In this document: piece after piece, positions 28,852-43,600 of the stretch
Numbering within the stretch: position 1 is the stretch's first letter
Layout: every line of letters begins with the position of its first letter
Assembly: GCA_016787725.1 (NCBI GenBank)
Contig: JAEUTZ010000016.1
Span: 1 to 64,000 of the forward strand
Source: Cyclobacteriaceae bacterium
Lineage (GTDB): Bacteria; Bacteroidota; Bacteroidia; Cytophagales; Cyclobacteriaceae
Direction: 5' to 3'
DNA length: 64,000 nucleotides
Translations under genes and position numbers: made by a program
Notes under the pieces: model-generated
What the model saw: the letters and a program-made list of their open reading frames with translations, nothing else
Told to the model about the DNA's origin: nothing
Database searches by the model: none

Positions 28852-28896
28852 TGTAACTTTAGTCACTAACTTAGCAGGTGTTAACCGATACCTTTG
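28852..28896 (+). promoter_or_regulatory. Crp/Fnr-type operator 1 and promoter of the TauE-like gene
   Basis: Palindrome TGTAACTTTAGTCACT at 28852-28867 and a full -7 element TACCTTTG at 28889-28896. The distance from palindrome centre to -7 box is 29.5 bp, which puts the operator near -41 as for class II activation. Confidence 0.75.
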
Positions 28897-28907
28897 CGCC
28901 TTTATTG

Positions 28908-29711
28908 ATGACAACAATGGAAATAGTTGGTTATGCAGCCTCCATCATTATGGGCCTTTCCCTGGGATTGATTGGCGGAGGAGGTTCTATACTTACCGTC
29001 CCGATCCTGGTTTATTTGTTTGATGTTGACCCGGTACTCTCAACTGCCTATTCATTATTTGTAGTGGGCCTTACCAGTGTGGTGGGCTCTTACAGTCATT
29101 TTAAGAAAGGCAATGTTCATTTACAAACTGCTGTAATCTTCGGTGTGCCTTCCATTCTTGCGGTGTATGCCGTACGAAAATTTGTCGTACCCGTTATACC
29201 AGATCCTGTTTTCACAATCAGTAATCTGGTCGTAACCAAACCCCTTTTTATCCTGGTCCTCTTCGCCTTGCTGATGGTGGTCGCCAGCATTTCGATGATT
29301 CGCAAAATCACCTTGAAAGAGGAACGGTCAGGACATATTCATTACAATTACCCGGTCATTTTTCTGGAAGGAATCCTGGTGGGCGGAATCACCGGTCTAG
29401 TCGGAGCTGGCGGTGGCTTTCTGATTATTCCAGCACTGGTCTTATTGGCTGGATTGCCGATGAAGCAAGCCGTGGGTACTTCCTTGTTGATCATTGCCCT
29501 AAAATCGCTCATTGGTTTTACCGGAGATTTAGGTTCCGGACTCGAAATCGACTATCAGTTCATGTTGTTCTTTTCTGTTTTTGCTATGGTAGGAATTGTG
29601 GCCGGCAGCTATTTGACCCGGTTCATTCCGAACGAAAAGTTAAAACCGGCATTTGGTTGGTTTGTGCTGATCATGGGCATTTACATCCTCGTCAAGGAGC
29701 TCTTCCTATAA
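28908..29711 (+). CDS. TauE/SafE family sulfite/sulfur anion exporter
   Basis: About 267 residues from the ATG at 28908; an ATG at 28917 is also in frame, and the GTG at 28878 lies upstream of the -7 box and is rejected. Eight hydrophobic helices are seen with the two internally repeated family motifs: LSLGLIGGGGSILTVPILVY and GITGLVGAGGGFLIIPALVL, each followed by a helix with TAYSLF or VGTSLL. Members export sulfite, sulfoacetate or other organosulfur anions. Its operator-linked promoter and neighbours suggest disposal of sulfite formed by the persulfide dioxygenase. Transcribed as a single gene. Confidence 0.88.
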   Translation: MTTMEIVGYAASIIMGLSLGLIGGGGSILTVPILVYLFDVDPVLSTAYSLFVVGLTSVVGSYSHFKKGNVHLQTAVIFGVPSILAVYAVRKFVVPVIPDPVFTISNLVVTKPLFILVLFALLMVVASISMIRKITLKEERSGHIHYNYPVIFLEGILVGGITGLVGAGGGFLIIPALVLLAGLPMKQAVGTSLLIIALKSLIGFTGDLGSGLEIDYQFMLFFSVFAMVGIVAGSYLTRFIPNEKLKPAFGWFVLIMGIYILVKELFL

Positions 29712-29899
29712 AACCGGAAGCACTTGATTAGTCATTTTTTCTCCGGAATGCGAAAAGTCCAACGTGTTAATGCCTGCCTGAGCGGGAGTGGATTTTAGTG
29801 CGTGTTAAGGCCATTTTAAGCCTTTAATCCCATTTATTATAATTTTCGGAAGGACCGCCCTCAATACAAAACCTTTAATAAGCCATAAAACTAACCCTC
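29712..29899. other. Intergenic region upstream of the YeeE operon
   Basis: Nothing coding is seen. A weak CCGGA...TCCGG pairing after the TauE gene is not a convincing terminator. The regulatory elements of the next operon begin at 29900. Confidence 0.5.
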
Positions 29900-29945
29900 T
29901 GTAACTTTTGTTACTGACATTAGTCATGTTTGTCCTGTATTTTTG
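29900..29945 (+). promoter_or_regulatory. Crp/Fnr-type operator 2 and promoter of the YeeE-TsdA-porin operon
   Basis: Palindrome TGTAACTTTTGTTACT at 29900-29915, with perfectly symmetrical GTAAC/GTTAC half-sites, and -7 element TATTTTTG at 29938-29945. Centre to -7 distance is 30.5 bp. It precedes the first YeeE gene by 29 nt. Confidence 0.8.
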
Positions 29946-29974
29946 TTCCTAGATTAAGATAACCCTTACCTGTT

Positions 29975-30538
29975 ATGATAGAATTGATGCGTCAGCCCTG
30001 GCCCTGGTATGTGGCGGGAGCCGTTATTGGACTTACTGTTCCAGCTTTGTTGTTGTTAGGCAACAAGCACCTTGGCATTTCCTCTTCCTTGCGACATGTA
30101 TGCGCTGCCTGTATTCCGGGAAACATTTCATTTTTCAAGTATGACTGGAAAAAGGAAATCTGGAATCTGTTTTTTGTTGGCGGAGTATTGATAGGTGGCA
30201 TTATCGCTGCCCAGGCATTAAGCAACCCCGATCAAATTGTAATCTCTGAAAAGACCGTTACAGACCTGCAGGCATTGAATGTGACCGTAGATGGCGAGTT
30301 GATGCCGGCATCCATTTTCAGTTTTGAAAACCTGCTAACAATACAAGGCTTTTTGTTTTTTGTAGTCGGTGGATTCCTGGTGGGTTTTGGCACCCGCTAT
30401 GCCGGAGGGTGTACCAGTGGGCATACCATCATGGGCCTTTCTAACCTGCAATGGCCCTCACTGGTGGCAACGTGTTGCTTCATGGTTGGTGGTATGGTGA
30501 TGATTCATTTTATTTTCCCCTGGTTGATGAGTTTATAA
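29975..30538 (+). CDS. YeeE/YedE family sulfur transporter, first half
   Basis: 187 residues with about four to five hydrophobic helices. The hallmark [17 protein letters not shown] carries the conserved Cys that in E. coli/Spirochaeta YeeE relays thiosulfate through the pore. Other cysteines appear in [11 protein letters not shown]. The family takes up thiosulfate or related sulfur units. Here the transporter is encoded as two separate halves, the second starting 18 nt downstream. Both are probably required together, which is a family-level inference. Confidence 0.88.
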
Positions 30539-30556
30539 AACTATAAAGAGATAGCG

Positions 30557-31066
30557 ATGCAAAAGGCAAAGGATGAGTTTGTAGATGTTTCAGCAGTACC
30601 CCACCCGATTGAGTGTGAAGCACCCAACGATCAGGTAACCAAAGAGACCCTGATTGGATCGAACATTAAGTACCTGATTACAGGCATTGTGTTTGGAATT
30701 GTATTTGTAAAAGCGGAGATCATTTCCTGGTACCGCATTCAAGAGATGTTCCGTTTCCATTCCTTCCATATGTATGGTGTTATTGGCACTGCAGTGATTG
30801 TGGGTGCAATTTCCGTATGGGCCATCAAGCGTTTCGGCATTAAAACCATGCAGGGCGAAACGGTAGTTTTTCATGACAAGCAATTTCATTGGGGAAATGT
30901 AATTGGTGGGGTAATGTTTGGGTTAGGCTGGGGAATAACCGGTGCCTGTCCAGGCCCGCTTTTCGCGCAGATTGGCAGTGGATTTCTTGTTGTAATTGTA
31001 ACCCTGTTGAGCGCTGTTGCAGGGACATGGGTGTATGGGTTGCTTCAAAAGAAGTTGCCACATTAA
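30557..31066 (+). CDS. YeeE/YedE family sulfur transporter, second half (DUF6691 type)
   Basis: 169 residues. A polar N-terminus of about 35 residues precedes four hydrophobic helices. GWGITGACPGPLFAQIGSG is the second-half signature with the pore cysteine. Partner of the preceding YeeE half. Expression from operator 2 is likely, as the genes are 18 nt apart. After it, 122 nt separate it from the cytochrome gene; that gap holds CCGATA/TATCGG and ACCGAT/ATCGGT pairings around 31110-31135 but no operator of the cluster type. Confidence 0.87.
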   Translation: MQKAKDEFVDVSAVPHPIECEAPNDQVTKETLIGSNIKYLITGIVFGIVFVKAEIISWYRIQEMFRFHSFHMYGVIGTAVIVGAISVWAIKRFGIKTMQGETVVFHDKQFHWGNVIGGVMFGLGWGITGACPGPLFAQIGSGFLVVIVTLLSAVAGTWVYGLLQKKLPH

Positions 31067-31188
31067 AAAGTCAGCTCAAAAAATCTTTTAACTCAGAATG
31101 AGAAACCGATCCCCGATAGAAAATCTTATCGGTAAACGAATCGGGTATTTTTAAAGAGTGCTGTAATTCACATGCTGCATTGCACCAA

Positions 31189-32229
31189 ATGGAAAGTTAT
31201 TCTCCACACGATCGTCCTTTTGTTAAAATGATCAGCCTGGTGTTGGTGCTGGTGGTTTTTCTGTTGATTGCCATGGGAGTGCTAACCTCCATCGTAGTAA
31301 TCGGACCCAAGAAAGTGGCAGCGTGGTTGGCCACTCCAGATACAGTTAAGCCCACGGTTGAAACCGGGTCCAATTTTTGGCAGGCCCCGGATTGGAAGCT
31401 GGTTCCCGAGGATGAACAGGGAAAGCTTATCCGCTACGGACGAGATTTGATTGTGCAAACGTCATCCTATCTGGGTCCCAACGGTTCGGTGAAAGCGATG
31501 AGCAATGGCATGAATTGTCAGAATTGCCATCTGGATGCCGGCACCAAACTTTTTGGAAATAATTACAGTGCGGTGGCGGCAACCTATCCAAAATTCCGGC
31601 CCCGGTCCGGTACAGAGGAAACCATTGAAAAGCGTGTGAACGATTGTTTTGAGCGCAGTTTGAATGGCCTAGCTCTGGCAGAAAACAGCAAAGAGATGAA
31701 AGCAATTGTGGCCTACATTAACTGGGTAGGCAAGGATGTTCCGAAAGGAAAGTCTCCTGAAGGATCAGGGTTGGTTGAGCTCCCTTTCCTGGACCGGCCA
31801 GCCAATGTTGAGAATGGAAAGGTGGTTTACGAAAAGCAATGCGTTGTGTGCCACGGCAAAGAGGGGAACGGGATTGCATTGGCCGATGGTACCGGTTGGC
31901 AATTTCCTCCGTTGTGGGGCGAACATAGTTATAACCAGGGTGCTGGCCTTTACCGTCTCTCTCGTTTTGCCGGATACGTAAAAGCAAACATGCCTTTGGG
32001 GGCAACCTTTGACAATCCGCAATTAACCGATGAAGAAGCGTGGGATGTGGCGGCTTATGTTAATGCACTCCCTCGCCCTGAAAAAGATTTGAGCCAGGAC
32101 TGGCCGGATATTTCAAAGAAACCAATTGATCATCCCTTTGGTCCCTTTGCGGATGAGTTTGATGAGACCCAACATAAATTTGGTCCTTTCAAACCGATAC
32201 AGGAGAAACGAAAAGCCGGGGCGAAGTAA
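31189..32229 (+). CDS. tsdA: TsdA-like diheme c-type cytochrome (thiosulfate dehydrogenase family)
   Basis: About 346 residues from the ATG at 31189; an in-frame TTG at 31180 is less likely. An N-terminal membrane anchor (residues 10-35, VKMISLVLVLVVFLLIAMGV) is followed by two heme sites, C110-x2-C113-H114 in GMNCQNCHLDAGT and C218-x2-C221-H222 in KQCVVCHGKEGNG. KRVNDCFERSLNG contains C153, at the place of the unusual axial cysteine of TsdA. PPLWGEHSYNQGAG is also family typical. The reaction would be oxidation of two thiosulfates to tetrathionate, or the reverse. Membrane tethering suggests electron transfer to the respiratory chain. Confidence 0.87.
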   Translation: MESYSPHDRPFVKMISLVLVLVVFLLIAMGVLTSIVVIGPKKVAAWLATPDTVKPTVETGSNFWQAPDWKLVPEDEQGKLIRYGRDLIVQTSSYLGPNGSVKAMSNGMNCQNCHLDAGTKLFGNNYSAVAATYPKFRPRSGTEETIEKRVNDCFERSLNGLALAENSKEMKAIVAYINWVGKDVPKGKSPEGSGLVELPFLDRPANVENGKVVYEKQCVVCHGKEGNGIALADGTGWQFPPLWGEHSYNQGAGLYRLSRFAGYVKANMPLGATFDNPQLTDEEAWDVAAYVNALPRPEKDLSQDWPDISKKPIDHPFGPFADEFDETQHKFGPFKPIQEKRKAGAK

Positions 32230-32233
32230 ATCC

Positions 32234-33664
32234 ATGAAGTTTTTAAAGATGATTGTAACCAGTTTGCTGGCGTTGGGCGGATTGCGGTCGGGGCAAGCAC
32301 AGCATCATGATCCGAACTGGTCGGCCGAACGAATTCTGATAGATAAGCAATGCCTGGAGAAGGACAGCCTCACCAACCTGCTTCACAACATGGGCACATT
32401 TGAAGGCCATATCCGGAATTTCTTCATGACGACAACCAATCATGCCGGGTTTCCGGATTATTATGCGTTGGGGATCGGGGGCGGGCTAGGGTACTATTCA
32501 CCGGTGGTAAAAGGATTTCAGTTAGGCATGTCGGGCTTTATCATTTATAATGTAGCATCATCACCATTGGCACCGGCACCGCCTTTTGCCAACCGGTACG
32601 AGGTAGGATTGTTTGACCTAACCAATCCGGATAATCATGAAGATCTGGACCGGCTGGAAGATCTTTATTTGCGGTACTACTATAACTCGAAAAATAAATC
32701 CTACTTCCAGGTAGGCAAGTTTCATTTAAAGACACCCCTGATTAACCTGCAAGACGGACGGATGCGCCCCAATTTACAAGAGGGTGTTTGGGGCGAATGG
32801 AATGAATGGAATAAGGTTAAATTAAAAGCTGGTTGGATTTGGCGCTCTTCGCCTCGCTCCACCATCCGCTGGTATCATATAGGCGAATCGCTGGTTTATC
32901 CAAACGGGCGGGCCGTTAATGGAAACAAAGCAACGTATTCAAACCACACACAGAGCGAGGGAATTGCCATCGCAAACCTGGGGCTTAAGCCAACTAAACA
33001 GTTCGACTACCAGCTTTGGAATTATTATGTTGCAAGCCTGTTCAACATGGCCCTAAACAAAATTGAATTTCGACAGCAATCCGGAAGCCGATTGTGGATG
33101 GCCGGGGTTCAATACTTCTGGCAACAATCTCTAAATAATGATACACTGGCGATTGAAAAGCAATACATCACCGTGCAGGAGCAATCCCATACGGTGAGCG
33201 CCAGGATTAGCGTATCCAACAGCCGGCAGGATGAATGGTCACTCAACTACACCCGGATAACCCAGCATGGCCGGTTTTTATTTCCACGGGAGTGGGGCAT
33301 TGAACCCTTTTATACCTTTCTACAACGTGAACGCAATGAAGGAGCTGGCAATGTGCATGCATCCTCCGTACAACATACGCGACATCTCGATAAGGGCAAG
33401 CATTGGGAAGTAATGGCGGCTGGCGGCATGTATTGGATGCCCTCTGTTATTGATGCCAGACTGAATAAATATGCCATGCCATCTTACTTTCAATTGAATG
33501 CCCGATCACGCTATCGCTTTCAGGGATTTCTGACAGGATTAAATCTGGAAGTATTATATTCCTATAAGGGAAATCTAGTGAAGGGCCTGGAAACTCAACC
33601 AGGATATTACCACAACAAGGTTGATATGCACCACCTTTCTGTGGTATTGGATTATTATTTTTAA
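32234..33664 (+). CDS. OprD-like outer-membrane porin
   Basis: 476 residues from the ATG at 32234, 4 nt after the cytochrome stop; the frame is open further upstream inside that gene but only this start gives a signal peptide (KFLKMIVTSLLALGGLRSGQAQ). OprD/AlgE-type features are GHIRNFFMTTTN, YYALGIGGGLGYYSP, EDLYLRYYYNSKNKSYFQVG and DGRMRPNLQEGVWGEW, with alternating strands and a terminal aromatic (VVLDYYF). It probably admits small anions for the TsdA/YeeE system, as judged by operon position. Confidence 0.85.
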   Translation: MKFLKMIVTSLLALGGLRSGQAQHHDPNWSAERILIDKQCLEKDSLTNLLHNMGTFEGHIRNFFMTTTNHAGFPDYYALGIGGGLGYYSPVVKGFQLGMSGFIIYNVASSPLAPAPPFANRYEVGLFDLTNPDNHEDLDRLEDLYLRYYYNSKNKSYFQVGKFHLKTPLINLQDGRMRPNLQEGVWGEWNEWNKVKLKAGWIWRSSPRSTIRWYHIGESLVYPNGRAVNGNKATYSNHTQSEGIAIANLGLKPTKQFDYQLWNYYVASLFNMALNKIEFRQQSGSRLWMAGVQYFWQQSLNNDTLAIEKQYITVQEQSHTVSARISVSNSRQDEWSLNYTRITQHGRFLFPREWGIEPFYTFLQRERNEGAGNVHASSVQHTRHLDKGKHWEVMAAGGMYWMPSVIDARLNKYAMPSYFQLNARSRYRFQGFLTGLNLEVLYSYKGNLVKGLETQPGYYHNKVDMHHLSVVLDYYF

Positions 33665-33709
33665 TCAAAGGAAGCTAAGTATTTCGATGCCGAACGATGA
33701 GCAAGATCA

Positions 33710-33755
33710 TGTAACATTTGTTACTAACTTATTGGTTAGATTATTTGCACCTTTG
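33710..33755 (+). promoter_or_regulatory. Crp/Fnr-type operator 3 and promoter of the rhodanese gene
   Basis: Palindrome TGTAACATTTGTTACT at 33710-33725 and -7 element CACCTTTG at 33748-33755 (one mismatch). Centre to -7 distance is 30.5 bp. The rhodanese ATG is 19 nt downstream. Confidence 0.75.
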
Positions 33756-33773
33756 CAGTAAACAGGTAAGCGT

Positions 33774-34157
33774 ATGATTTGTAATCTGCCAGGGTTATTC
33801 ATCATTTGGATGATAACAACTTTGTCCCTTCAGGCTCAATCCATTACTAAACTTGATCCTGAAAAATTTGAAAAGAAGTTGGTTGAAGTAAAAAATCCAG
33901 TACTTATTGATGTACGAACCCCGGAAGAATATAGAGGGGGTCATTTAGAAGAAGCTACCCTCATGGATTATTATGCAAGTGATTTTAAATCCAAAGCATC
34001 TAAATTGGATCGAGCCAAACCTGTGTTTGTTTATTGTGCTTCTGGGGTGCGCAGCAACAGTGCAGCGGAAATATTTAAAGGGCTTGGATTTCAGGTTTAT
34101 GATTTAGCCGGAGGAATTCGTTCCTGGTCCCGGGCTGGAAAGGCAATCGCGAAGTAA
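33774..34157 (+). CDS. Periplasmic single-domain rhodanese
   Basis: 127 residues. Signal peptide of about 20 residues ending SLQAQ, then one rhodanese domain: VLIDVRTPEEYRGGHLEEA and the active-site loop VYCASGVRSNSA with C88, closing with YDLAGGIRSW. Transfers or binds sulfane sulfur through a cysteine persulfide, presumably in the periplasm. It has its own operator-linked promoter, so it belongs to the same predicted regulon as the thiosulfate genes. Confidence 0.92.
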   Translation: MICNLPGLFIIWMITTLSLQAQSITKLDPEKFEKKLVEVKNPVLIDVRTPEEYRGGHLEEATLMDYYASDFKSKASKLDRAKPVFVYCASGVRSNSAAEIFKGLGFQVYDLAGGIRSWSRAGKAIAK

Positions 34158-34215
34158 CCGATGGCGGTAGACGCATAATTTATTCTAGTGGAAAAAAAGT
34201 CCTGTCGATAAGATA

Positions 34216-34231
34216 TTACTCATAGGAGTAA
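34216..34231. promoter_or_regulatory. Palindrome upstream of the dipeptidase gene
   Basis: TTACTCATAGGAGTAA has perfect 6-bp arms (TTACTC/GAGTAA). A TACCTTCG -7-like box follows at 34243-34250, only 3 nt before the ATG. The palindrome differs in sequence and position from the Crp/Fnr-type sites and could be a different operator. Confidence 0.45.
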
Positions 34232-34253
34232 GCAGTTTTCACTACCTTCGACT

Positions 34254-35414
34254 ATGAGGAAATTTCTTCTTCTTTGTTTTTCTGTCCTTGGTACAGGAGC
34301 TCTTGCCTTCTTTACTTTTGCGCCTCGTTACATTGATCAATCCAAAAATTTAACAGGAACGTATCCGGAAGCATTCCTTCGCCAAACCTGGTACGATTCC
34401 ATCCCGTTTATTGCGGATTTACATTGTGATTTGTTACTGTGGGATCGGGATTTTTTTAAGCACCACAGCTATGGACATGTTGATTTACCACGCATGCAGC
34501 AAGGAAGCATGGCCTTTCAGGCATTTACTGTTGTAAGCAAGGTACCCGCAGGAATTAATATTGAGCGTAACCCGTCAACCAGTGATCAGATTGGTCTGTT
34601 AAGTTTCGCTCAATTACGCTCCCCCGCTACGTGGTTTAGCTCCAAGGCTCGCGCGTTGGACCAGTGTAGTCAACTACATGAATATGCTGATCGGTCGGAA
34701 GGCATGTTTCGGGTAATTACCAGCCAGCAAGAATTACAAACATTTATTAAAGATCGAAAATCCAATCAAAAACTGACCGCTGGAATGTTAGGACTTGAGG
34801 GCGCACATTGTCTCGAAAATGATCTAAGCAACCTGCAGGTGTTTTACAATGCGGGTGTTCGCTACATCGGGTTAACACATTTCTTTGACAATGAATGGGC
34901 CGGGTCAGCGCACGGTGAGAAAAAGGAAGGGCTTACCGGTTTAGGCAAACAGCTCATTCGAAAAATGGATAGTTCAAATATGATCATCGACCTGGCGCAT
35001 GCCTCTATGAAAACCATCGATGATGTATTAGCATTAACTAAGCGTCCGATTATTGTTTCGCACACGGGCGTAAAGGGTGTATGTAATAATCAACGCAATC
35101 TTTCTGATCAGCATTTGATTGCAATCGGTAAGCGAAACGGCCTGGTAGGCATTGGCCTGTGGGAAACGGCAGTTTGTGGAACGGATGTGAGTGCTACAGC
35201 TCGAAGTATCCGGTATGCAGCTGATTTGATTGGTGTGGACAAGGTAGCCCTGGGCTCGGACTTTGATGGAGCGATTGGCACGCACGTGGATGCTGCCGGA
35301 TTGCCTCTGGTGGCAATGGCTTTAGAGCAGGAAGGGTTTGATCGCGCTGAGATCGAGTTGATCATGGGTGGTAACATTCGCGACTTCCTCTTAAGAAATT
35401 TACCCGCAAACTAG
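34254..35414 (+). CDS. Membrane/periplasmic dipeptidase (peptidase M19, renal dipeptidase family)
   Basis: 386 residues with an N-terminal signal or anchor (RKFLLLCFSVLGTGALAFF). The binuclear zinc site is seen as ADLHCDLLLW (HxD), GMLGLEGAHC (bridging Glu), IDLAHAS and IVSHTG (His ligands) and LGSDFDGAIG (Asp). M19 enzymes cleave dipeptides including L,D forms and Cys-Gly. In this cluster a role on glutathione- or cysteine-derived dipeptides is a speculation. The next operator starts within a few bases of its stop. Confidence 0.92.
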   Translation: MRKFLLLCFSVLGTGALAFFTFAPRYIDQSKNLTGTYPEAFLRQTWYDSIPFIADLHCDLLLWDRDFFKHHSYGHVDLPRMQQGSMAFQAFTVVSKVPAGINIERNPSTSDQIGLLSFAQLRSPATWFSSKARALDQCSQLHEYADRSEGMFRVITSQQELQTFIKDRKSNQKLTAGMLGLEGAHCLENDLSNLQVFYNAGVRYIGLTHFFDNEWAGSAHGEKKEGLTGLGKQLIRKMDSSNMIIDLAHASMKTIDDVLALTKRPIIVSHTGVKGVCNNQRNLSDQHLIAIGKRNGLVGIGLWETAVCGTDVSATARSIRYAADLIGVDKVALGSDFDGAIGTHVDAAGLPLVAMALEQEGFDRAEIELIMGGNIRDFLLRNLPAN

Positions 35415-35416
35415 AT

Positions 35417-35462
35417 CTGTGACAAAGATCACAGAAATCGATTTCGATACCGGTTATCTTTC
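35417..35462 (+). promoter_or_regulatory. Crp/Fnr-type operator 4 and promoter of the SoxB-like gene
   Basis: CTGTGACAAAGATCACAG at 35417-35434 has perfect 6-bp outer arms, close to the classical CRP consensus. TATCTTTC at 35455-35462 is the -7 box (one mismatch), 29.5 bp from the palindrome centre. It shows that translation begins at 35479, not at the in-frame codon at 35419. Confidence 0.75.
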
Positions 35463-35478
35463 CAAATTAATCGAAACT

Positions 35479-37227
35479 ATGGAAAACAAACATCAAGCAG
35501 AATGTGGTTGTGATCATTGCGGATCCTCCGGTTCCCGAAGGGATTTTTTGAAGTCTGCGGCTTTGTTGACCGGTGGATTATCGCTGATGGGCACTACCGT
35601 GGCAGGGGCAGTTTCATCGCCAGCAGACCCGGTAAAGGCGATCGGCAAAAGTCAAGCTATAGCTGCTGGTAAAGCAACCCGGTTTACCATCCTTTATACA
35701 GCTGATATTCATGCACAGATTTTGACGCATGATGAGTTTTTTCTTGAAAATGGAAAGCCGGTATATAAGAAGCGAGGCGGGTTGGCAGTTCTTAAAACCA
35801 TGATTCATACCCTTAAAGCCGAAAATCCTGAGAACACTATCATCTTGGATGCTGGCGATTGTTTTCAGGGCGGTGGTGTAGCAGCTTTATCTCAAGGAAG
35901 AGCCATTGTACCCTTGATGAATAACATTGGATATGACTTGATTCTTCCAGGTAATTGGGAAGTGGTGTATGGCAAGGAGATGATGCAACGGGATCTGGGG
36001 GCTTACCAGGCTGCCAAGATTTGCGCCAACATGTTTCATGACACAAAAGATGAATTTAAAGGCGAATTGATTTTTCAACCGTATTGGACAAAAGTAATTG
36101 GTGGCGTTAAGATTGGATTTATCGGGTACAACGATCCGCTCACACCCAAACGTCAGTCACCCGCTTATAGCTATGGAATTACTTTTACAAAGCCTGAATT
36201 GAATGTGGCTAAGTACATTCGTTTACTCCGCGATTATGAGAAGTGCAGCATGGTATTTTTAGTGACGCACATGGGGTTGGCACAACAAGTGGATCTTGCT
36301 AATAAGCCGTACGTGGAAGGTGCTGACTATATTTTAGGTGCCGATACGCACGAACGGGTTCGTAAACCCATAGAAGGCAAGTATTCAAAGGTAACAGAGC
36401 CTGGAGCCTTTGGCTCCTTTGTTTCCCGGTTGGATTTTGTTGTAGAAGACGGGATTGTAAAAGACCAACACTATGCCTTGCTGGATGTAGATCCGGACCG
36501 GTATAAACCCGATACGGAAATGGAGAGCCTGGTAAAAGAAGCACGCGAACCTTACCGGGTTGAATTGGATACGGTAATTGGGCGCACAAAAAATACCCTC
36601 GTACGGTATTATGTAATCGAAAATCCGATGGACAACATGATTACCGATGCACTCATGTGGAAATTAAAACCAGATGTAGCCCTTTCCAATGGATTTCGTT
36701 TCTGTCCACCCCTGGTTCCCGATCCGAAAAAAGGCTATGCTGAAATTACCAATGACTACCTGTGGAGCATGTTGCCAGTTGATTCCAATGCCCGGCAAGC
36801 GGAGGTTACCGGTAAGCAAATCTGGAATTGGATGGAGAAGGAGTTGCACAATGTTTTTGCTAGCGATCCCGCGAAACGTTTTGGTGGCTGGGTGATTCGC
36901 TTTAAGGGCATGGAAGTAAAATTCACGGTACACAAAGAATTGGGAGAACGCGTCAACAACATAAGGATTCAAGGGAAACCGATTGATCTTGAAAAGTCTT
37001 ATACGGTTGTTGCCTGTGAGCGCGAAGGCGATCCGGAAGAAGTGCTTTGCCGGATTGAAGGGGTAAGCGGGGCTCACAACGTGAATAGTACGCTGCACGA
37101 AATAATGCGGGAGTACCTGGCAAAATTTTCCCCGGTGGCACCCAAGGTGGAAGGTAGAATTACGGCTACCGATGTGCCAAATAATTTATTGTCTCAATTG
37201 GAAGGTTACGATTACGAGTTTATCTGA
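35479..37227 (+). CDS. Tat-exported SoxB-like 5'-nucleotidase family metallophosphoesterase
   Basis: 582 residues. A short Cys/His-rich leader (ECGCDHCGSSG) precedes a twin-arginine signal SRRDFLKSAALLTGG. The metallophosphoesterase domain has LYTADIHAQ (DxH), ILDAGDCFQGG (GD), LPGNWEVVYG, VFLVTHMGL and YILGADTHERV. The 5'-nucleotidase C-terminal domain begins near DNMITDALMWKLKPDVAL. The GNWE..YG motif carries the tryptophan typical of SoxB (GHWEFTYG) rather than the GNHE of nucleotidases, and Tat export also fits SoxB, which hydrolyses protein-bound S-thiosulfonate. No soxYZ or soxXA lies in the window. A nucleotidase role cannot be excluded. The operator in front and the neighbours favour sulfur metabolism. 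Confidence 0.78.
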   Translation: MENKHQAECGCDHCGSSGSRRDFLKSAALLTGGLSLMGTTVAGAVSSPADPVKAIGKSQAIAAGKATRFTILYTADIHAQILTHDEFFLENGKPVYKKRGGLAVLKTMIHTLKAENPENTIILDAGDCFQGGGVAALSQGRAIVPLMNNIGYDLILPGNWEVVYGKEMMQRDLGAYQAAKICANMFHDTKDEFKGELIFQPYWTKVIGGVKIGFIGYNDPLTPKRQSPAYSYGITFTKPELNVAKYIRLLRDYEKCSMVFLVTHMGLAQQVDLANKPYVEGADYILGADTHERVRKPIEGKYSKVTEPGAFGSFVSRLDFVVEDGIVKDQHYALLDVDPDRYKPDTEMESLVKEAREPYRVELDTVIGRTKNTLVRYYVIENPMDNMITDALMWKLKPDVALSNGFRFCPPLVPDPKKGYAEITNDYLWSMLPVDSNARQAEVTGKQIWNWMEKELHNVFASDPAKRFGGWVIRFKGMEVKFTVHKELGERVNNIRIQGKPIDLEKSYTVVACEREGDPEEVLCRIEGVSGAHNVNSTLHEIMREYLAKFSPVAPKVEGRITATDVPNNLLSQLEGYDYEFI

Positions 37228-37841
37228 TGAATAAGACCTTTTGGAATGAGCGCTATCAGGCCAACGAAACCACCTATGGCATTGAACCCAATGATTTTTT
37301 CAAGAGTCAGCTTGACCAGTTGACTCCGGGGAAACTACTGCTACCGGCAGAAGGGGAGGGACGCAATGCTCTGTATGCCGCCCGACAAGGTTGGCAGGTA
37401 ACGGCCTATGATTTCAGTGAAGTTGCCCGAATTAAAACGTTACAACAGGCACTTCATTTAAATTTGCTGAATATAGAATATCATGTTCAGGATTTAAGTC
37501 AAATTGAATTGCCTGAAAATACCTTTGATGCGATCGGTATTATTTTCGTGCACTTACCCGAATCCATAAGGAAGCATTTGCATGGAACGTGCGTCCAAAG
37601 TCTCAGGCCTGGAGGTAGGATCATACTGGAAGTATTTTCAAAAAGTCAGCTCCAATACAATTCCGGAGGCCCGAAAGATTACGATTTACTTTCTTCCCTT
37701 GAGATTCTTCAACAGGATTTTGCTCCGCTTACGATGAACCTAATGGAGGAACGCCTGATCGAATTAAGCGAGGGCTTCTTTCACTCAGGACCCGCGCACG
37801 TTGTGAGGATGGTGGCTACGAAGGATTCGCAACCGAAGTAA
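37227..37841 (+). CDS. Class I SAM-dependent methyltransferase (TehB/thiol methyltransferase-like)
   Basis: 204 residues, cytosolic. The N-terminal FWNERYQANETTYGIEPNDF is typical of thiopurine/TehB-like small-molecule methyltransferases. The SAM loop is LLLPAEGEGRNALYAARQGW, followed by VTAYDFS (acidic ribose contact) and a catalytic-side FDAIGIIFVHLP. Its ATG overlaps the SoxB-like stop (TGATG), so translation is coupled and the two are co-regulated. An inorganic or organic thiol as acceptor is a context inference. Its 3' end overlaps the convergent thioredoxin gene by 26 nt. Confidence 0.85.
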   Translation: MNKTFWNERYQANETTYGIEPNDFFKSQLDQLTPGKLLLPAEGEGRNALYAARQGWQVTAYDFSEVARIKTLQQALHLNLLNIEYHVQDLSQIELPENTFDAIGIIFVHLPESIRKHLHGTCVQSLRPGGRIILEVFSKSQLQYNSGGPKDYDLLSSLEILQQDFAPLTMNLMEERLIELSEGFFHSGPAHVVRMVATKDSQPK

Positions 37842-38205
37842 ATTTCTTTTCAACTACCAGGTGTTCATCAATCACTTTCTTGAAGACGTTTTTTGGGAAT
37901 GCACCCGGCTGGATCATCGGTTTTCCCTCCACCGGAATGAACAAAAAAGTAGGAATGCTACGGACATCAAATACACCCGCCAACTCCTGCTCACGTTCTG
38001 TATCCACTTTATAAATGATCAATTTGCCATCGTATTCTTTGGCGAGCTCTTCCAGAACCGGTGCTACCATTTTACACGGACCACACCAGTCAGCATAAAA
38101 GTCAATGAGGGCTGGTAGAGTTCCTTTATAGTTCCAATTTTCTTCAGCTGTATAGTCAAATACCTTTTGCTTGAATTCTTCGGTAGTCAGTTTGATGGTT
38201 GTCAT
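37816..38205 (-). CDS. Thioredoxin
   Basis: 129 residues, no signal peptide, single domain. The active site is DWCGPCKMVAPVLEE, with the cis-proline in RSIPTFLFIP. The N-terminus has a short extra helix (TTEEFKQKVFDYTAEEN). A reductant for persulfides or oxidised rhodanese cysteines is likely given the cluster. Expression is predicted from the minus-strand promoter adjoining operator 5. It is convergent with the methyltransferase gene and overlaps it. Confidence 0.95.
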   Translation of the reverse strand: MTTIKLTTEEFKQKVFDYTAEENWNYKGTLPALIDFYADWCGPCKMVAPVLEELAKEYDGKLIIYKVDTEREQELAGVFDVRSIPTFLFIPVEGKPMIQPGAFPKNVFKKVIDEHLVVEKKFTSVANPS

Positions 38206-38224
38206 GATCGATTATTTAAGGACA

Positions 38225-38269
38225 CAAATTTCGGGCTTTTCAATCCGCTTTTCTGTAACATCTGTCACC
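38225..38269 (-). promoter_or_regulatory. Crp/Fnr-type operator 5 and thioredoxin promoter
   Basis: Palindrome TGTAACATCTGTCACC (plus strand, 38254-38269). On the minus strand GAAATTTG (38225-38232, one mismatch) is the -7 box, 29.5 bp from the palindrome centre and 19 nt before the thioredoxin ATG. Confidence 0.68.
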
Positions 38270-38334
38270 GGCAGAAAGGTTCCGAATCTTTAATTTTGTG
38301 ATAAATCCCGTTAATTTTGATAAATTTTGAATTG

Positions 38335-38380
38335 TGTAACCAAAATCACGGAAGTAAGGGTGCCCGGGGTTGTACCTTTG
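38335..38380 (+). promoter_or_regulatory. Crp/Fnr-type operator 6 and promoter of the persulfide dioxygenase gene
   Basis: TGTAACCAAAATCACG at 38335-38350 and a full -7 match TACCTTTG at 38373-38380, 30.5 bp from the palindrome centre. The leader to the ATG at 38450 is about 65 nt. Two TAATTTTG boxes at 38291 and 38312 lie upstream and could be minor promoters. Confidence 0.72.
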
Positions 38381-38449: not shown

Positions 38450-39853
38450 ATGTTTTTTCAACACATTTACGACAAAACTCTGGCGCAGGCCAGCTACCTC
38501 ATCGGATGTCAGAAAACCGGGGAGTCCATTGTCATAGATGCCAAGCGCGATGTTGATACGTATCTTGAGATCGCCAAGCAGAATAATTTGCAAATCACGC
38601 ACATTACCGAAACGCACATTCATGCCGACTTCTTAACAGGGTCGCGTGAGTTGGCAAAATTAACAGGAGCCCAACTGTATCTCTCTGACGAAGGAGGCGA
38701 AGGCTGGCTCTATGAGTTTCCGCACATCGGGTTAAAGGATGGCAGTGTGATAAAGGTGGGTAACCTTACCTTGAAGGTGTTGCATACTCCGGGCCATACC
38801 CCTGAAAGCATCAGTTTCCTGCTGACGGATCATCCCGCCAGTAACGAGCCCGTCATGTTATTTACCGGTGACTTTGTTTTTGTGGGTGACGTAGGCCGAC
38901 CCGATTTGTTGGAGAAAGCAGCTGGCATACAGGGTACGAAGGAGGCAGGGGCCAAAGAGATGTATAAGTCCATTGCAAAGTTCAACGCGCTTCCCGACTA
39001 CATCCAGGTGTGGCCGGGTCATGGAGCGGGTTCGGCTTGCGGTAAAGCGTTGGGGGCGGTACCAAGTACCACGGTGGGTTATGAAAAGGTACGCAACTGG
39101 GCATTTCAATACCCGAACAACGAGAATGGCTTTGTTAAATACCTGCTGGAAGATCAACCTGAACCGCCCAAGTATTTTGCCATGATGAAGAAGCTCAATA
39201 AAGTGGATCGACCCCTGTTGACGGCAGTACCCAAGCTAAAGAAACTCGCTGCCCAGGAATTTAGATCGGCATTTGATAAAGGAGTGAAACTAATTGATAC
39301 ACGAAATAAAGTTGACTTCGCAACCGGTTTTATACCGGGCAGCATCAACATCCAAGGCAATAATTCCTTCGCTACGTGGGCTGGTTGGCTTCTAAATTAT
39401 GAAGAACCGTTTATGCTGCTGGTAGCTGAAAATCAAGTGGAAGACGTGACGCGTAAATTAATGCGGATTGGATTGGACAATGTGTTAGGATATATCGAGA
39501 ATGTAAACCCCTGGCTGGAATCAGGGAAGACACTGGCAAAAAGCGAAGTAATTTCGTTAGAAGAGTTCAAGCAACTTTACACGAATAACAACATCCAATT
39601 AGTTGACGTGCGGGGAGAGGCTGAGTATAAGTCGGGCCACATTAAGGGCGCTGAAAATATTTTTGTTGGCACCCTGGGCAACAACCTGAATAAATTTAAA
39701 AAAGATAAACAGATTGTTATTCACTGCCAAAGTGGTGATCGGACAGCCATCGCATATTCATTACTGGTGAAGAGTGGAATCAAGGTGAAAAATTATTCTG
39801 CCGGTATGAGTGAGTGGGTGAATGCCGGGAACCCGATAGTCACTGAAGTTTAG
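38450..39853 (+). CDS. Persulfide dioxygenase-rhodanese fusion (ETHE1/CstB-like)
   Basis: 467 residues, cytosolic. The metallo-beta-lactamase-fold domain (about 1-250) has mononuclear iron ligands H56, H58 and D60 in ETHIHADFL, LHTPGHTPESISFLL, FTGDFVFVGDVGRPDLL and VWPGHGAGSACGK. The first rhodanese-like domain (about 265-360) lacks the catalytic cysteine. The second (about 370-467) has HCQSGDRT with C426. It oxidises glutathione or low-molecular-weight persulfide to sulfite and can pass sulfur to give thiosulfate, linking sulfide detoxification to the TauE exporter and the thiosulfate genes. Own operator-linked promoter. Confidence 0.93.
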   Translation: MFFQHIYDKTLAQASYLIGCQKTGESIVIDAKRDVDTYLEIAKQNNLQITHITETHIHADFLTGSRELAKLTGAQLYLSDEGGEGWLYEFPHIGLKDGSVIKVGNLTLKVLHTPGHTPESISFLLTDHPASNEPVMLFTGDFVFVGDVGRPDLLEKAAGIQGTKEAGAKEMYKSIAKFNALPDYIQVWPGHGAGSACGKALGAVPSTTVGYEKVRNWAFQYPNNENGFVKYLLEDQPEPPKYFAMMKKLNKVDRPLLTAVPKLKKLAAQEFRSAFDKGVKLIDTRNKVDFATGFIPGSINIQGNNSFATWAGWLLNYEEPFMLLVAENQVEDVTRKLMRIGLDNVLGYIENVNPWLESGKTLAKSEVISLEEFKQLYTNNNIQLVDVRGEAEYKSGHIKGAENIFVGTLGNNLNKFKKDKQIVIHCQSGDRTAIAYSLLVKSGIKVKNYSAGMSEWVNAGNPIVTEV

Positions 39854-40524
39854 TCATGGCACCTTTAGCTCCTGATTCTTACAATTTAATTTAGCCAGAA
39901 TATTTCTCCGTTGAATATCCACGGTATGGAAGAAAAACAATTCGGGTGCGATTTCTTTTGCTGATTTTCCCTTAACACTTAGTTGAACAATTTCAATTTC
40001 ACGTGAGGTTAAATGAGCCTTTTGCAAGTAAGTATCGATAAAGTTTAACGAACGATTATAACGGATTAGCTTCGGAATAGAAAACTGATCCGAAATTTTT
40101 AGCTGTGGTGCTTCCTTCAATAAATTCGGCATGGGATGAGTTTTTAAGAAGATCTCCATTCGACTTGAGTTTTCTCGCTTTTTCGATCATGACGGGCTCT
40201 TCATGCATGGTAAATTTTAATACCTTGATTGAAGAATTCTCTTCCTGATTTCTTCAAGGATTGAAAAGCCACCATCACTGCGGAGATTCAAATTCAGTAA
40301 AATGAGTGGTGGTTGGTGAATTTTGATCAATTCTTGCAACCCGATACGGGAATGAGTACTGCCGCAAAAGCTAAATTCTGCATTTCCCGAAAGAATGAGG
40401 CCCCTTTGATAACTTCCTCGAGATCTTCGCAGATTATCAGTTTAGTGACCAAGCCAACGTGCTTCAGCAATGAAAATACTGAGAAATTGGTATTGGAAAA
40501 ATCAACTTTAAGAAAATTCATCAT
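39854..40524 (-). pseudogene. Decayed NarL/LuxR-family response regulator
   Basis: Shifting frames on the minus strand recovers a full receiver plus HTH protein. Starting near 40524: MMNFLKVDFSNTNFSVFSLL and LIICEDLEEVI, then in another frame LQELIKIHQPPLILLNLNL with GGFSILEEIRKR, then KFTMHEEPVMIEKARKLK. The final frame (40159 to 39854) has a clear LuxR HTH, LTSREIEIVQLSVKGKSAKE followed by NILAKLNCKN. At least three frameshifts break it. The phospho-acceptor position reads Asn (LILLNLN), so the receiver was probably already inactive. The last 101 codons could still be translated as an HTH-only protein. Confidence 0.78.
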
Positions 40525-40652: not shown

Positions 40653-43600
40653 ATGAAAAGGCTTAGTCTCTTGCTGCTAGCATCAGTGGCATCTTTATCC
40701 CTTTGTGCGCAGTCAATATTTGGCACAACCTCGGCAGGCGGTAATTTTAACAAGGGTACAGTTTACTCGATGAATCTGGATGGTTCCGGGTTCACGGTTT
40801 TACATCATTTTAATCAGTCGGACGGAAATCAGCCGCAAGGGAGATTAACCCGTTTACCAAATGGCAGATTGATGGGCGTAACCTACCAGGGTGGGGATGA
40901 AAATGTGCCGGGAACTCCTTTTGCAATAAACAACGGTGGTGTTGTTTTTTCAATTAATTCAGACGGCTCTGATTTTCAAAAACTGTATTCATTTAACAAA
41001 GCAAGTTCCGGATTTTACGAACACGGTGAAAAACCGGCTTTTGGATTATTGCTGGCCAGCGATGGCAAACTTTATGGTGCCACAACATCTGGCGGTTCGC
41101 TTGGAGGCGGAGTGCTTTACCGGATAAACCAGGATGGATCAAACTTTCAGGTGTTGCTTAATTTCGGAGGGCCTGCGTCAGTAAAAGGAATTCCAGCAGA
41201 GATTCCCGGAAACAGAATTATTTTTTCAGTGGCAGGGGGAAATCAGATTTATAAGTATTCGTTAAATGATCCCAACCTGAATCGTATCCCTACTGTTGCC
41301 GATATCTTGACACCGTTGTCGGGCAATACGCCTGGCAATACCCCTATTATTAAATCAGACGGAAATCTTTACGGTACAACCCTGACGGGCGGAACCAACA
41401 ATCGCGGTTTCCTGTACCGGGTTGATTTAAGCTCACCCACAAACTATACAACCTTAGCAAGTTTTCCTGACCATTTTGTTCAATATGGCCAACTCATGGA
41501 AGGTCAGGACGGCCTCTTGTATGGAACTTTTTCAAGAAATTCTGGAACGGGCGGTGTGTTTAGGTTCGATCCGGGTCAGAATAATTTTTCAATCATTACC
41601 GAAACCGGAACGGTTGGGCCATCAGCCGTTTTAAGTCAGCTCACGAACGGAGCTCTTATAACGTATAATAATTCCTCGGCATTTAATCCCAATACGGGGT
41701 ACAACAACGACTATATCTTTCGTGTAGAGAATGATGGCAGTAACTTAACCGTGCTTCGCAATTTTGGTGTTTCGTCAGCTTATGGTTTTGGATCGGTAAG
41801 TAATAATAGTTTATTTATATATAGCCCTGTCCAACAATCTCAATCCATCACATTCAGTTTGCCGGCCAGCCTCACGGTTGGATCGTTGCCGTACCTGATA
41901 AACGGGACATCATCTTCTGGCATGGATTTACTTTATGTCAGCAGTAATCCATCAGCCGTAAAAGTAGTTAACGGTAACTCACTGCTGCCGATAGCCGCGG
42001 GCTCGGCCACTATTACGGCATACCAATTGGGAAATTATGAATACCTGGCGGCAGATCCCGTGGTGCAGAATATCACTATAATTGAACCCCCACCCCTGCT
42101 GGCTGATTCATTGGCGCTTGTTCAGTTGTATACCGATACCAATGGACCTGGGTGGACGAATAATTCAAACTGGTTAACAGGACCCGTAGATACATGGTAT
42201 GGAATTACGGTAAGCGGGGGCAGAATCACCGGCATCAATTTGGATGACAATAATTTGGCCGGTTCATTACCGGCCGGACTTGGTGATCTCACAGCATTAA
42301 CAACCCTCCTGCTGGGAAGTGACCCCATTAGCGGAGTCGTTCCCGATCAACTGGGGAACCTGACTCAGCTTTCAATCCTTCAAATTAATTTTACCAGTGT
42401 AGCGGGTTCAATCCCGCCATCGTTGGGTAACTTAACTCAGCTAACAACGCTCAGGCTGAACAACAACAGCCTTACGGGCTTGGTTCCTCCCTCTCTGAGT
42501 ACGCTTGTAAACTTAGTTACATTGGATTTGAGTGAGAACTTTCTGGCAGGGGGATTTTATTCGCCTGGCTTATCGGGTACAGTTCCTTCAATTTTTTCAG
42601 GAATGACGCAATTGCAAACATTAAACCTTGCATTCAATTCATTTTCGGGGGACTTTCCGGATATCTCAGGCCTCGCCAATCTTCAACAGGTATTGCTTAA
42701 CAATAATCAGCTAACAGGCCTTCCACCGTTATCTGGATTAAGCTCCTTGATGACATTTGATGTAACCCATAACCTCCTTTCATTTGATGATATAGAAACC
42801 AATACAGGATTAATGGGTTTCGTTTTCTCACCGCAAGGTGAAATTCCGGTAATCAATCCAAACCTATCAGTTGACTACGGACAGCCTTTTTCTATATCTA
42901 TTTCAACAAGCGGCTCTGCAAATCAATATCAATGGTATCGGAATGGAGCCATTATACCGGGGGCGGTGACCAATACCTATACTTCCTCATCGGCAGTAAT
43001 AAGTGACACCGGTTCGTACTTCCTGCAGGTAACAAGTCCGGTTATTTCTAACCTCACAATAGTATCTCAACTCATCAATGTAACAGTTAATATTCCTACA
43101 ACGAATGCGTCTGATTCACTCGCCCTGGTCAGTCTTTACAACTCCACCAACGGTAGCACCTGGTTAACGAAAAACAATTGGCTTACTGGCAACGTAAGTA
43201 CCTGGCACGGGATTATTGTGGAAAACGGGCGTGTTACCGAAATCAAGTTAAACAACAATCAGTTAACCGGCACTCTGCCCGACTTATCTGCCCTCACAGC
43301 CCTCACAAATTTTTCCATCGCCAATAATCAGGTAGCCGGGGGTATTCCAGTCACGCTCGGCAACCTGATTGCGCTTCAAACTTTAAATCTGGCCAATAAC
43401 CGGTTTACAGGCACGATACCCAACCTCAGCAACCTTACTAATCTTCAACACTTTTCATTGGCTACTAATACCTTCCTGGCACTCCAGGCATTTCCCGCAT
43501 GGGTGGTTACCCTTTCACAACTCCAAACCTTAAATCTTCAAAACAGCCGGTTGCAGGGTGCTTTCGTGGCCGGCTTCAGCAACCTGAGTAATCTACGTGA

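Follow-up and report, generated by a model that had tools for sequence, protein, structure and literature searches.

Six Crp/Fnr-type operators lie in a 64,000-nucleotide stretch of the genome of a Cyclobacteriaceae bacterium (the window; contig C24:1–64000 of a 4.21-Mb genome, G000, in 27 contigs), and we consider it highly probable that they form one small regulon, read by the Crp/Fnr protein L003 and activated from a class II position at sulfur and persulfide genes. The sites, their spacing, their conservation, the candidate regulator and the covariation between regulators and operators were all derived from sequence. Ordinary Crp/Fnr class II geometry is already known; the new part would be a cysteine-marked subfamily with a sulfur regulon. 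Candidate regulator, operator, promoter geometry, targets and specificity residue combine into one testable prediction, usable for annotating sulfur regulons in many Bacteroidota.

An initial annotation of the window had described six operators, each centred 29.5 or 30.5 bp from the first base of a TAnnTTTG-type −7 box, and all six 16-mers were found at those positions when the window sequence was read. From operator start to first box base, the distance is 37 (29.5 from the centre) at sites 28852, 35418 and 38254, and 38 (30.5 from the centre) at sites 29900, 33710 and 38335; three of the six boxes carry one mismatch to TAnnTTTG.

28852..28867, plus strand: operator 1, TGTAACTTTAGTCACT, upstream of a TauE/SafE-type (TSUP) exporter gene; spacing 37
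28889..28896, plus strand: −7 box TACCTTTG of promoter 1
29900..29915, plus strand: operator 2, TGTAACTTTTGTTACT, upstream of a YeeE/YedE pair; spacing 38
29938..29945, plus strand: −7 box TATTTTTG of promoter 2
33710..33725, plus strand: operator 3, TGTAACATTTGTTACT, upstream of a rhodanese gene; spacing 38
33748..33755, plus strand: −7 box CACCTTTG of promoter 3, one mismatch
35418..35433, plus strand: operator 4, TGTGACAAAGATCACA, upstream of a soxB-like gene; spacing 37
35455..35462, plus strand: −7 box TATCTTTC of promoter 4, one mismatch
38254..38269, minus strand: operator 5, TGTAACATCTGTCACC as read on the plus strand, for thioredoxin and possibly for the plus strand too; spacing 37
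38225..38232, minus strand: −7 box GAAATTTG of the thioredoxin promoter, one mismatch
38335..38350, plus strand: operator 6, TGTAACCAAAATCACG, upstream of a metallo-β-lactamase-fold (MBL)–rhodanese gene; spacing 38
38373..38380, plus strand: −7 box TACCTTTG of promoter 6

When operator and box are searched together, one mismatch and either spacing (37 or 38) being allowed, the window has 6 matches, site 38254 entering through its plus-strand reading. In 60 dinucleotide shuffles the average was 0.03 and the highest count 1, a comparison that is partly circular because the pattern was derived from the six sites themselves; the seventh genomic site and the sites in other genomes described below fall outside that circularity. 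For the operator core alone, one mismatch allowed, the enrichment is moderate (21 matches in the window versus 8.7 in shuffles; s.d. 3.4, largest 17).

Five of the sites had been assigned to the plus strand and one, that of thioredoxin, to the minus strand. Taken alone, the direction of this last site is ambiguous: its plus reading, with an exact TAATTTTG at 38291 and spacing 37 (window 38254–38298), has fewer mismatches, whereas its minus reading has two in all. In a comparison of five relatives, however, three have the better thioredoxin box on the minus strand, one has it on the plus strand and in one the two boxes are equal, which favours the minus assignment. The thioredoxin operator could serve both directions.

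In a published flavobacterial start-site map, the −7 box occupies −12 to −5 (PMC9723704); with these start sites of another organism, a spacing of 37 or 38 would place the operator centres near −41.5, at fixed distance from the core promoter, which agrees with the class II position near −41 that had been proposed for the window sites. From this position, activation rather than repression can be inferred. Known sulfane-sulfur regulators include several repressors (CstR, SqrR and BigR; PMC9774590), but we regard repression by these operators as unlikely, given that near base-exact spacing is needed for activation and not for repression, that the sites sit at the class II position and that the −7 boxes are often imperfect. 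In the activation mechanism that we propose, an L003 dimer would bind centred at approximately −41.5/−42.5, beside the −7 box used by the main sigma factor of Bacteroidota, and activate in class II fashion the TauE exporter, the YeeE transporters with a SoxA/TsdA-like cytochrome, the rhodanese, the SoxB-like enzyme, thioredoxin and the MBL–rhodanese protein, together with further targets behind the regulator's own gene (DUF6132–rhodanese–rhodanese–OsmC–thioredoxin).

The candidate regulator and its specificity residue

In the whole genome, 8 places match operator plus box at 37 or 38 with no more than one mismatch: the six window sites; C18 220633–220677 on the minus strand, at the end of L003; and C26 216249, inside an open reading frame (ORF). 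The seven plausible strong sites are all at sulfur units, as a genome-wide scan had been expected to show if the regulon was real, and the one at L003 was absent from the initial list. A Pfam search recovers six Crp/Fnr genes in the genome, none inside the window (a profile search adds two weaker matches), which fits the earlier proposal of a Crp/Fnr-type activator encoded elsewhere.

The suggested search for a Crp/Fnr gene with its own site leads to L003, a gene for 203 residues at G000:C18:220673–221284 (minus) and the best candidate for the regulator of the six window sites. Its product has a cyclic-nucleotide (cNMP)-type β-roll and a C-terminal Crp helix-turn-helix, placing it in the Crp/Fnr superfamily. 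The C18 operator overlaps the L003 stop codon and is followed by the box TACTTTTG at spacing 37 and then by a five-gene operon encoding a DUF6132 protein, two rhodaneses, an OsmC protein and thioredoxin. Orthologues of the L003 type with at least 66% identity number 18 among 58 related genomes (its own included), and in all 18 the operator overlaps the end of crp, the box lies at exactly 37 and rhodanese-type genes follow. Among 12 less similar Crp loci (L171–L182), the operator is at or within 85 bp after the end of crp in 5 and is not there in 7; two Chryseobacterium loci have the same order of Crp (63–64%), operator and rhodanese, with OsmC next in one of them. A palindrome search around the six Crp genes of the genome itself was uninformative, as its symmetry rule misses even the L003 site. 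The first arm of the operator doubles as the crp stop codon (L003 1516–2127; orthologues L153–L170).

L003 belongs to a subfamily in which one cysteine (Cys72, in a GESC motif) is invariant in 76 of 76 proteins and in which residue 178, directly after the first arginine of the recognition helix, is Glu in 38 of these distinct proteins and Val in the other 38. G stands at operator position 4 in 73 of the 94 half-sites of Glu178 regulators (31 loci) and in 7 of the 70 half-sites of Val178 regulators (19 loci), and 0 of 20,000 permutations were as extreme. Residue 178 was also the best predictor among the columns tested over 50 rows (F 105.8), the next being residue 183 (14.5). The difference persists when the rows are split at 50% identity to L003: the G fraction averages 0.80 for Glu (n = 23) and 0.07 for Val (n = 7) above that value, and 0.83 (n = 8) and 0.10 (n = 12) below it. 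In a tree drawn without the second copy of genome G007 (L219), both halves contain Glu as well as Val regulators, and L269 (Glu, G) falls within a Val group. As residue 178 predicts operator position 4, the L003 subfamily, and with it a regulator encoded outside the window, is tied to these operators. We take residue 178 to correspond to Glu181 of E. coli CRP, which reads the matching base pair. The contacts of E. coli CRP with its operator have been mapped, and changing Glu181 to Val is reported to alter its specificity; the Glu/Val covariation would be a natural counterpart of these classical experiments.

Conservation of the regulon and other possible readers

The following genes in the window accompany the six operators.

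28908..29711, plus strand: TauE/SafE (PF01925) exporter gene
29975..31066, plus strand: two half-size YeeE/YedE sulfur-transport genes (PF04143)
31180..32229, plus strand: c-type cytochrome with a SoxA/TsdA domain (PF21342) and a cbb3-type cytochrome domain
32231..33664, plus strand: OprD-like outer-membrane porin (weak match: E 7e-06, 25.8 bits versus a cut-off of 25), probably in the unit of the cytochrome
33774..34157, plus strand: single-domain rhodanese (PF00581)
34254..35414, plus strand: membrane dipeptidase M19 (PF01244)
35479..37227, plus strand: SoxB-like thiosulfohydrolase or 5′-nucleotidase-family enzyme (TIGR04486 267 bits, below the 550-bit cut-off)
37227..37841, plus strand: S-adenosylmethionine methyltransferase, TehB-like (every match below cut-off), in the unit of the soxB-like gene
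37816..38205, minus strand: thioredoxin (PF00085)
38450..39853, plus strand: MBL–rhodanese protein with two rhodanese stretches, persulfide dioxygenase-like

That all units serve sulfur-related genes, as had been stated, holds for most of them and is slightly generous for the M19 dipeptidase and the methyltransferase, for which no sulfur role is shown.

A search with the MBL–rhodanese protein returned 308 loci, of which the best 80 were used; these come from Cytophagales, Chitinophagales, Saprospirales, Sphingobacteriales and Flavobacteriales, and they are mutually related, so that counts across them are not independent. With up to two mismatches in all, 76 of the 80 loci contain operator-plus-box sites; of the 246 sites, 207 have spacing 37 and 39 have spacing 38. 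Of 56 TauE genes, 52 have such a site in front, as do 73 of 109 MBL-type genes, 23 of 48 first YeeE genes, 13 of 31 porin genes and 9 of 28 thioredoxin genes. The counts are 4 of 40 for rhodaneses of the L003 type, 1 of 16 for methyltransferases and 36 of 914 for other ORFs, with 21 sites left without assignment; no site precedes the second YeeE gene (0/44), OsmC (0/8) or Crp (0/16) in these loci. The recurrence of the operators at the same spacing before sulfur genes supports the sulfur regulon that the initial annotation had put forward.

The spacing itself stands out among exact operators: of 146, counted on both strands so that full palindromes count twice, 80 have a box with at most one mismatch at offset 37 and 8 at offset 38, with the remaining offsets averaging 1.7 (highest 27 at +3, within the operator, and 18 at +50). 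When one operator mismatch is allowed, the box is at 37 for 179 of 560. The backwards pattern yields 12 sites with 0 at 36–39 and, with one mismatch allowed, 230 sites with 2 at 36–39.

Close orthologues of the MBL protein (at least 73%) are present in 17 genomes, with the operator upstream in 15. A Crp/Fnr gene lies in the fetched flank of 18 of the 80 loci, and L003 is the closest of the six paralogues of its genome to 16 of these 18. Of 58 relatives, 12 have both a close L003 and a close MBL orthologue and 35 have neither (Fisher p = 7e-05, relatedness not corrected). At the level of the class, co-occurrence is uninformative: 5 of 148 genomes have a close MBL gene and all 5 have a GESC-type Crp, but so do 98 of the 148 anyway.

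Several observations weigh against a single regulon read by L003. Sites stand directly before SoxB in only 2 of 39 cases, before rhodaneses of the window type in 4 of 28 and before cytochromes in 6 of 39 across the 80 loci, so that conservation is lower for operators 3 and 4 than for operators 1, 2 and 6. Two of the 17 genomes with a close MBL gene (G007 and G008) lack the operator, in 5 of the 17 there is no close L003 orthologue, and conversely 6 of the 18 L003 genomes have no close MBL gene. Moreover, G009 and G018, which are drafts of 99% and 97% completeness, have the MBL gene and operator and no GESC-type Crp by profile search. The half-sites of the window are of the G type in 5 of 12 cases, compared with the 73 of 94 of Glu178 regulators, although this is still above the Val group, and in the own-genus orthologues of L003 the stop codon overlaps the left half-site and constrains its letters. 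Genome-wide, once three mismatches are allowed, fewer matches are found to the pattern than to its backwards control (33 + 28 versus 57 + 54; 29 + 28 versus 47 + 50), so that weak sites are not callable and only strong sites are meaningful. Finally, a second GESC-type paralogue, L004 (41% identical to L003), also has Glu178 and could share the sites.

That L004 (contig C26) reads the window sites, alone or together with L003 in a shared regulon, is improbable yet deserves consideration, as it has the invariant cysteine and the same contact residues as L003 and a palindrome, GGTGACCAGAGTCACC, 36 bp after its own gene (L004 1717–2097, G000:C26). In addition, G007 has no close L003 orthologue, and its best copy groups with L004, with an operator 85 bp behind. 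However, the arms of the L004 palindrome read GGTGAC and its box, GACATTCG, is poor; L003, and not L004, has the strong seventh genomic site; and G010 and G025 have the MBL operator together with an L003 orthologue, with nothing L004-like among the three matches listed for each. The L004 palindrome is followed by a small ORF and a 70-residue membrane protein that is presumably DUF2892-like.

A reader from outside the subfamily, that is, FNR-like L001, L002, L005, L006 or a global cAMP–CRP that would include the sulfur genes in general redox or carbon control, is very unlikely. Two relatives do have the MBL operator and lack a GESC-type Crp, and the TGTGA half-sites look like those of E. coli CRP; but the recognition helix lacks the first arginine in L001, L005 and L006 and the second in L002, residue 178 of the GESC family predicts an operator letter, and the strong genomic sites are confined to sulfur units, bar the one inside an ORF. 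A global cAMP–CRP or FNR reading was set aside on the basis of these unfit helices and this distribution of sites.

Cys72, the signal and known systems

The N-terminal cysteines of FNR hold a [4Fe-4S] cluster; the L003 protein (P0001) has a single cysteine, at position 72, and so lacks such an N-terminal set. With the CRP equivalog model it scores 57 bits, against a cut-off of 266, and does not qualify as a cAMP–CRP. In the nucleotide pocket of CRP, an Arg–Ser pair (R82, S83) contacts the phosphate. Within the L003 subfamily, Ser85 is kept in 76 of 76 proteins, and position 84 is mostly occupied by T (36 of 76), K (20), P (9), Q (3), L (2) or A (2). A structure model places Cys72 just before the helix 73–80, in the loop where CRP holds cAMP. 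It is plausible that Cys72, located where CRP has its cAMP-binding residues, senses persulfide, polysulfide or related sulfur species.

A broader scenario, which we put forward tentatively and with slightly less than even confidence, is that of a Bacteroidota-wide Crp/Fnr subfamily in which cyclic-nucleotide binding was replaced by an invariant pocket cysteine that senses persulfide or polysulfide directly, and which would switch on sulfur genes (transport, Sox-like and persulfide-dioxygenase) from −41.5, with a Glu/Val change at one recognition-helix residue having repeatedly re-tuned operator position 4. It is quite conceivable, if somewhat doubtful, that the regulator acts as proposed and that its signal is oxygen, redox state or a non-sulfur small ligand, Cys72 being structural. 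The sulfur signal is proposed from sequence here, Cys72 is a single conserved thiol (a second cysteine, at position 78, occurs in only 26 of 76 proteins), and haem binding is described for HcpR and PgRsp of Porphyromonas gingivalis (PMC12040651). Against a non-sulfur signal stand the targets, which are nearly all sulfur enzymes, carriers and transporters, the absence of the cysteine from the four paralogues of the genome outside the subfamily, and the absence of Arg from the six most frequent residues at the position of the CRP pocket Arg.

In its fold, its helix-turn-helix with two Arg contacts, its TGTGA-like half-sites and its centre near −41.5, the L003 system resembles class II activation by E. 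coli CRP, in which Glu at the Glu181 place likewise goes with G at the matching base pair. Unlike CRP, the L003 subfamily has no conserved Arg at the cyclic-nucleotide phosphate site and an invariant Cys starts that loop; its targets are sulfur genes and its promoters have the Bacteroidota −7 box. FNR shares the Crp/Fnr fold and class II geometry, but L003 lacks the N-terminal cysteine cluster and has Arg at the first contact place, and the FNR-like protein of the genome is L001. By sequence, the best match among solved structures is PDB 3dv8, a Crp/Fnr family regulator presumably from Eubacterium rectale (E 3.6e-19, covering residues 26–203), which has a Cys aligned to Cys72; it is not among the 50 matches listed by Foldseek, an absence that excludes nothing.

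CstR, SqrR/BigR and FisR resemble the proposed system in controlling sulfide and persulfide genes through cysteines, as Cys72 of L003 may do, but belong to the CsoR-like, ArsR and Fis families (PMC9774590). HcpR, PgRsp and CrpPg of P. gingivalis are, like L003, Crp/Fnr proteins of Bacteroidota; compared by description only, they differ from it in having roles in nitrosative stress, in redox (haem) and in ligand-independent global control (PMC12040651). The sulfane-sulfur regulators named in the sources consulted (CstR, SqrR/BigR, FisR, OxyR, MarR-type and others) come from different phyla and different protein families. In the open full-text literature, most subscription papers being outside this scope, no member of the Crp/Fnr family was found to be described as controlling sulfur or persulfide genes in Bacteroidota, and the passages of PMC9774590 that were consulted name no Crp/Fnr sulfane-sulfur regulator, its two mentions of 'crp' being reference titles on Shewanella.

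Weaker sites and neighbouring reading frames

Besides the window sites and the L003 site, 8 places in the genome match with at most two mismatches, and six of the seven inspected lie inside ORFs and were taken as chance. A plausible eighth operator is C18:7875–7919 on the minus strand (locus L042; TGTAACCATCATCACA, box GATCTTTA), lying 34 bp upstream of a gene whose 191-residue product carries a CLTCH motif of the haem type; a 130-amino-acid ORF overlying it on the opposite strand was taken as spurious. The match at C26:216219 (minus) represents the C26:216249 palindrome again. Just after the FNR-like Crp gene L001 and before a UspA-type (universal stress protein-like) gene (L001 1030–2751) stands an FNR-like site, TTTGATACACATCATT, followed at spacing 37 by TACTTTTG (G000:C27:375210–375254); it perhaps reflects use of the same arrangement by another Crp/Fnr protein.

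Within the window, a 101-residue ORF with the look of a LuxR-type helix-turn-helix (39854–40159, minus), which may be a fragment, lies right behind the MBL gene, and a 4,534-residue repeat protein (40653–54257, plus) has leucine-rich-looking stretches and a sorting-like C-terminal end.

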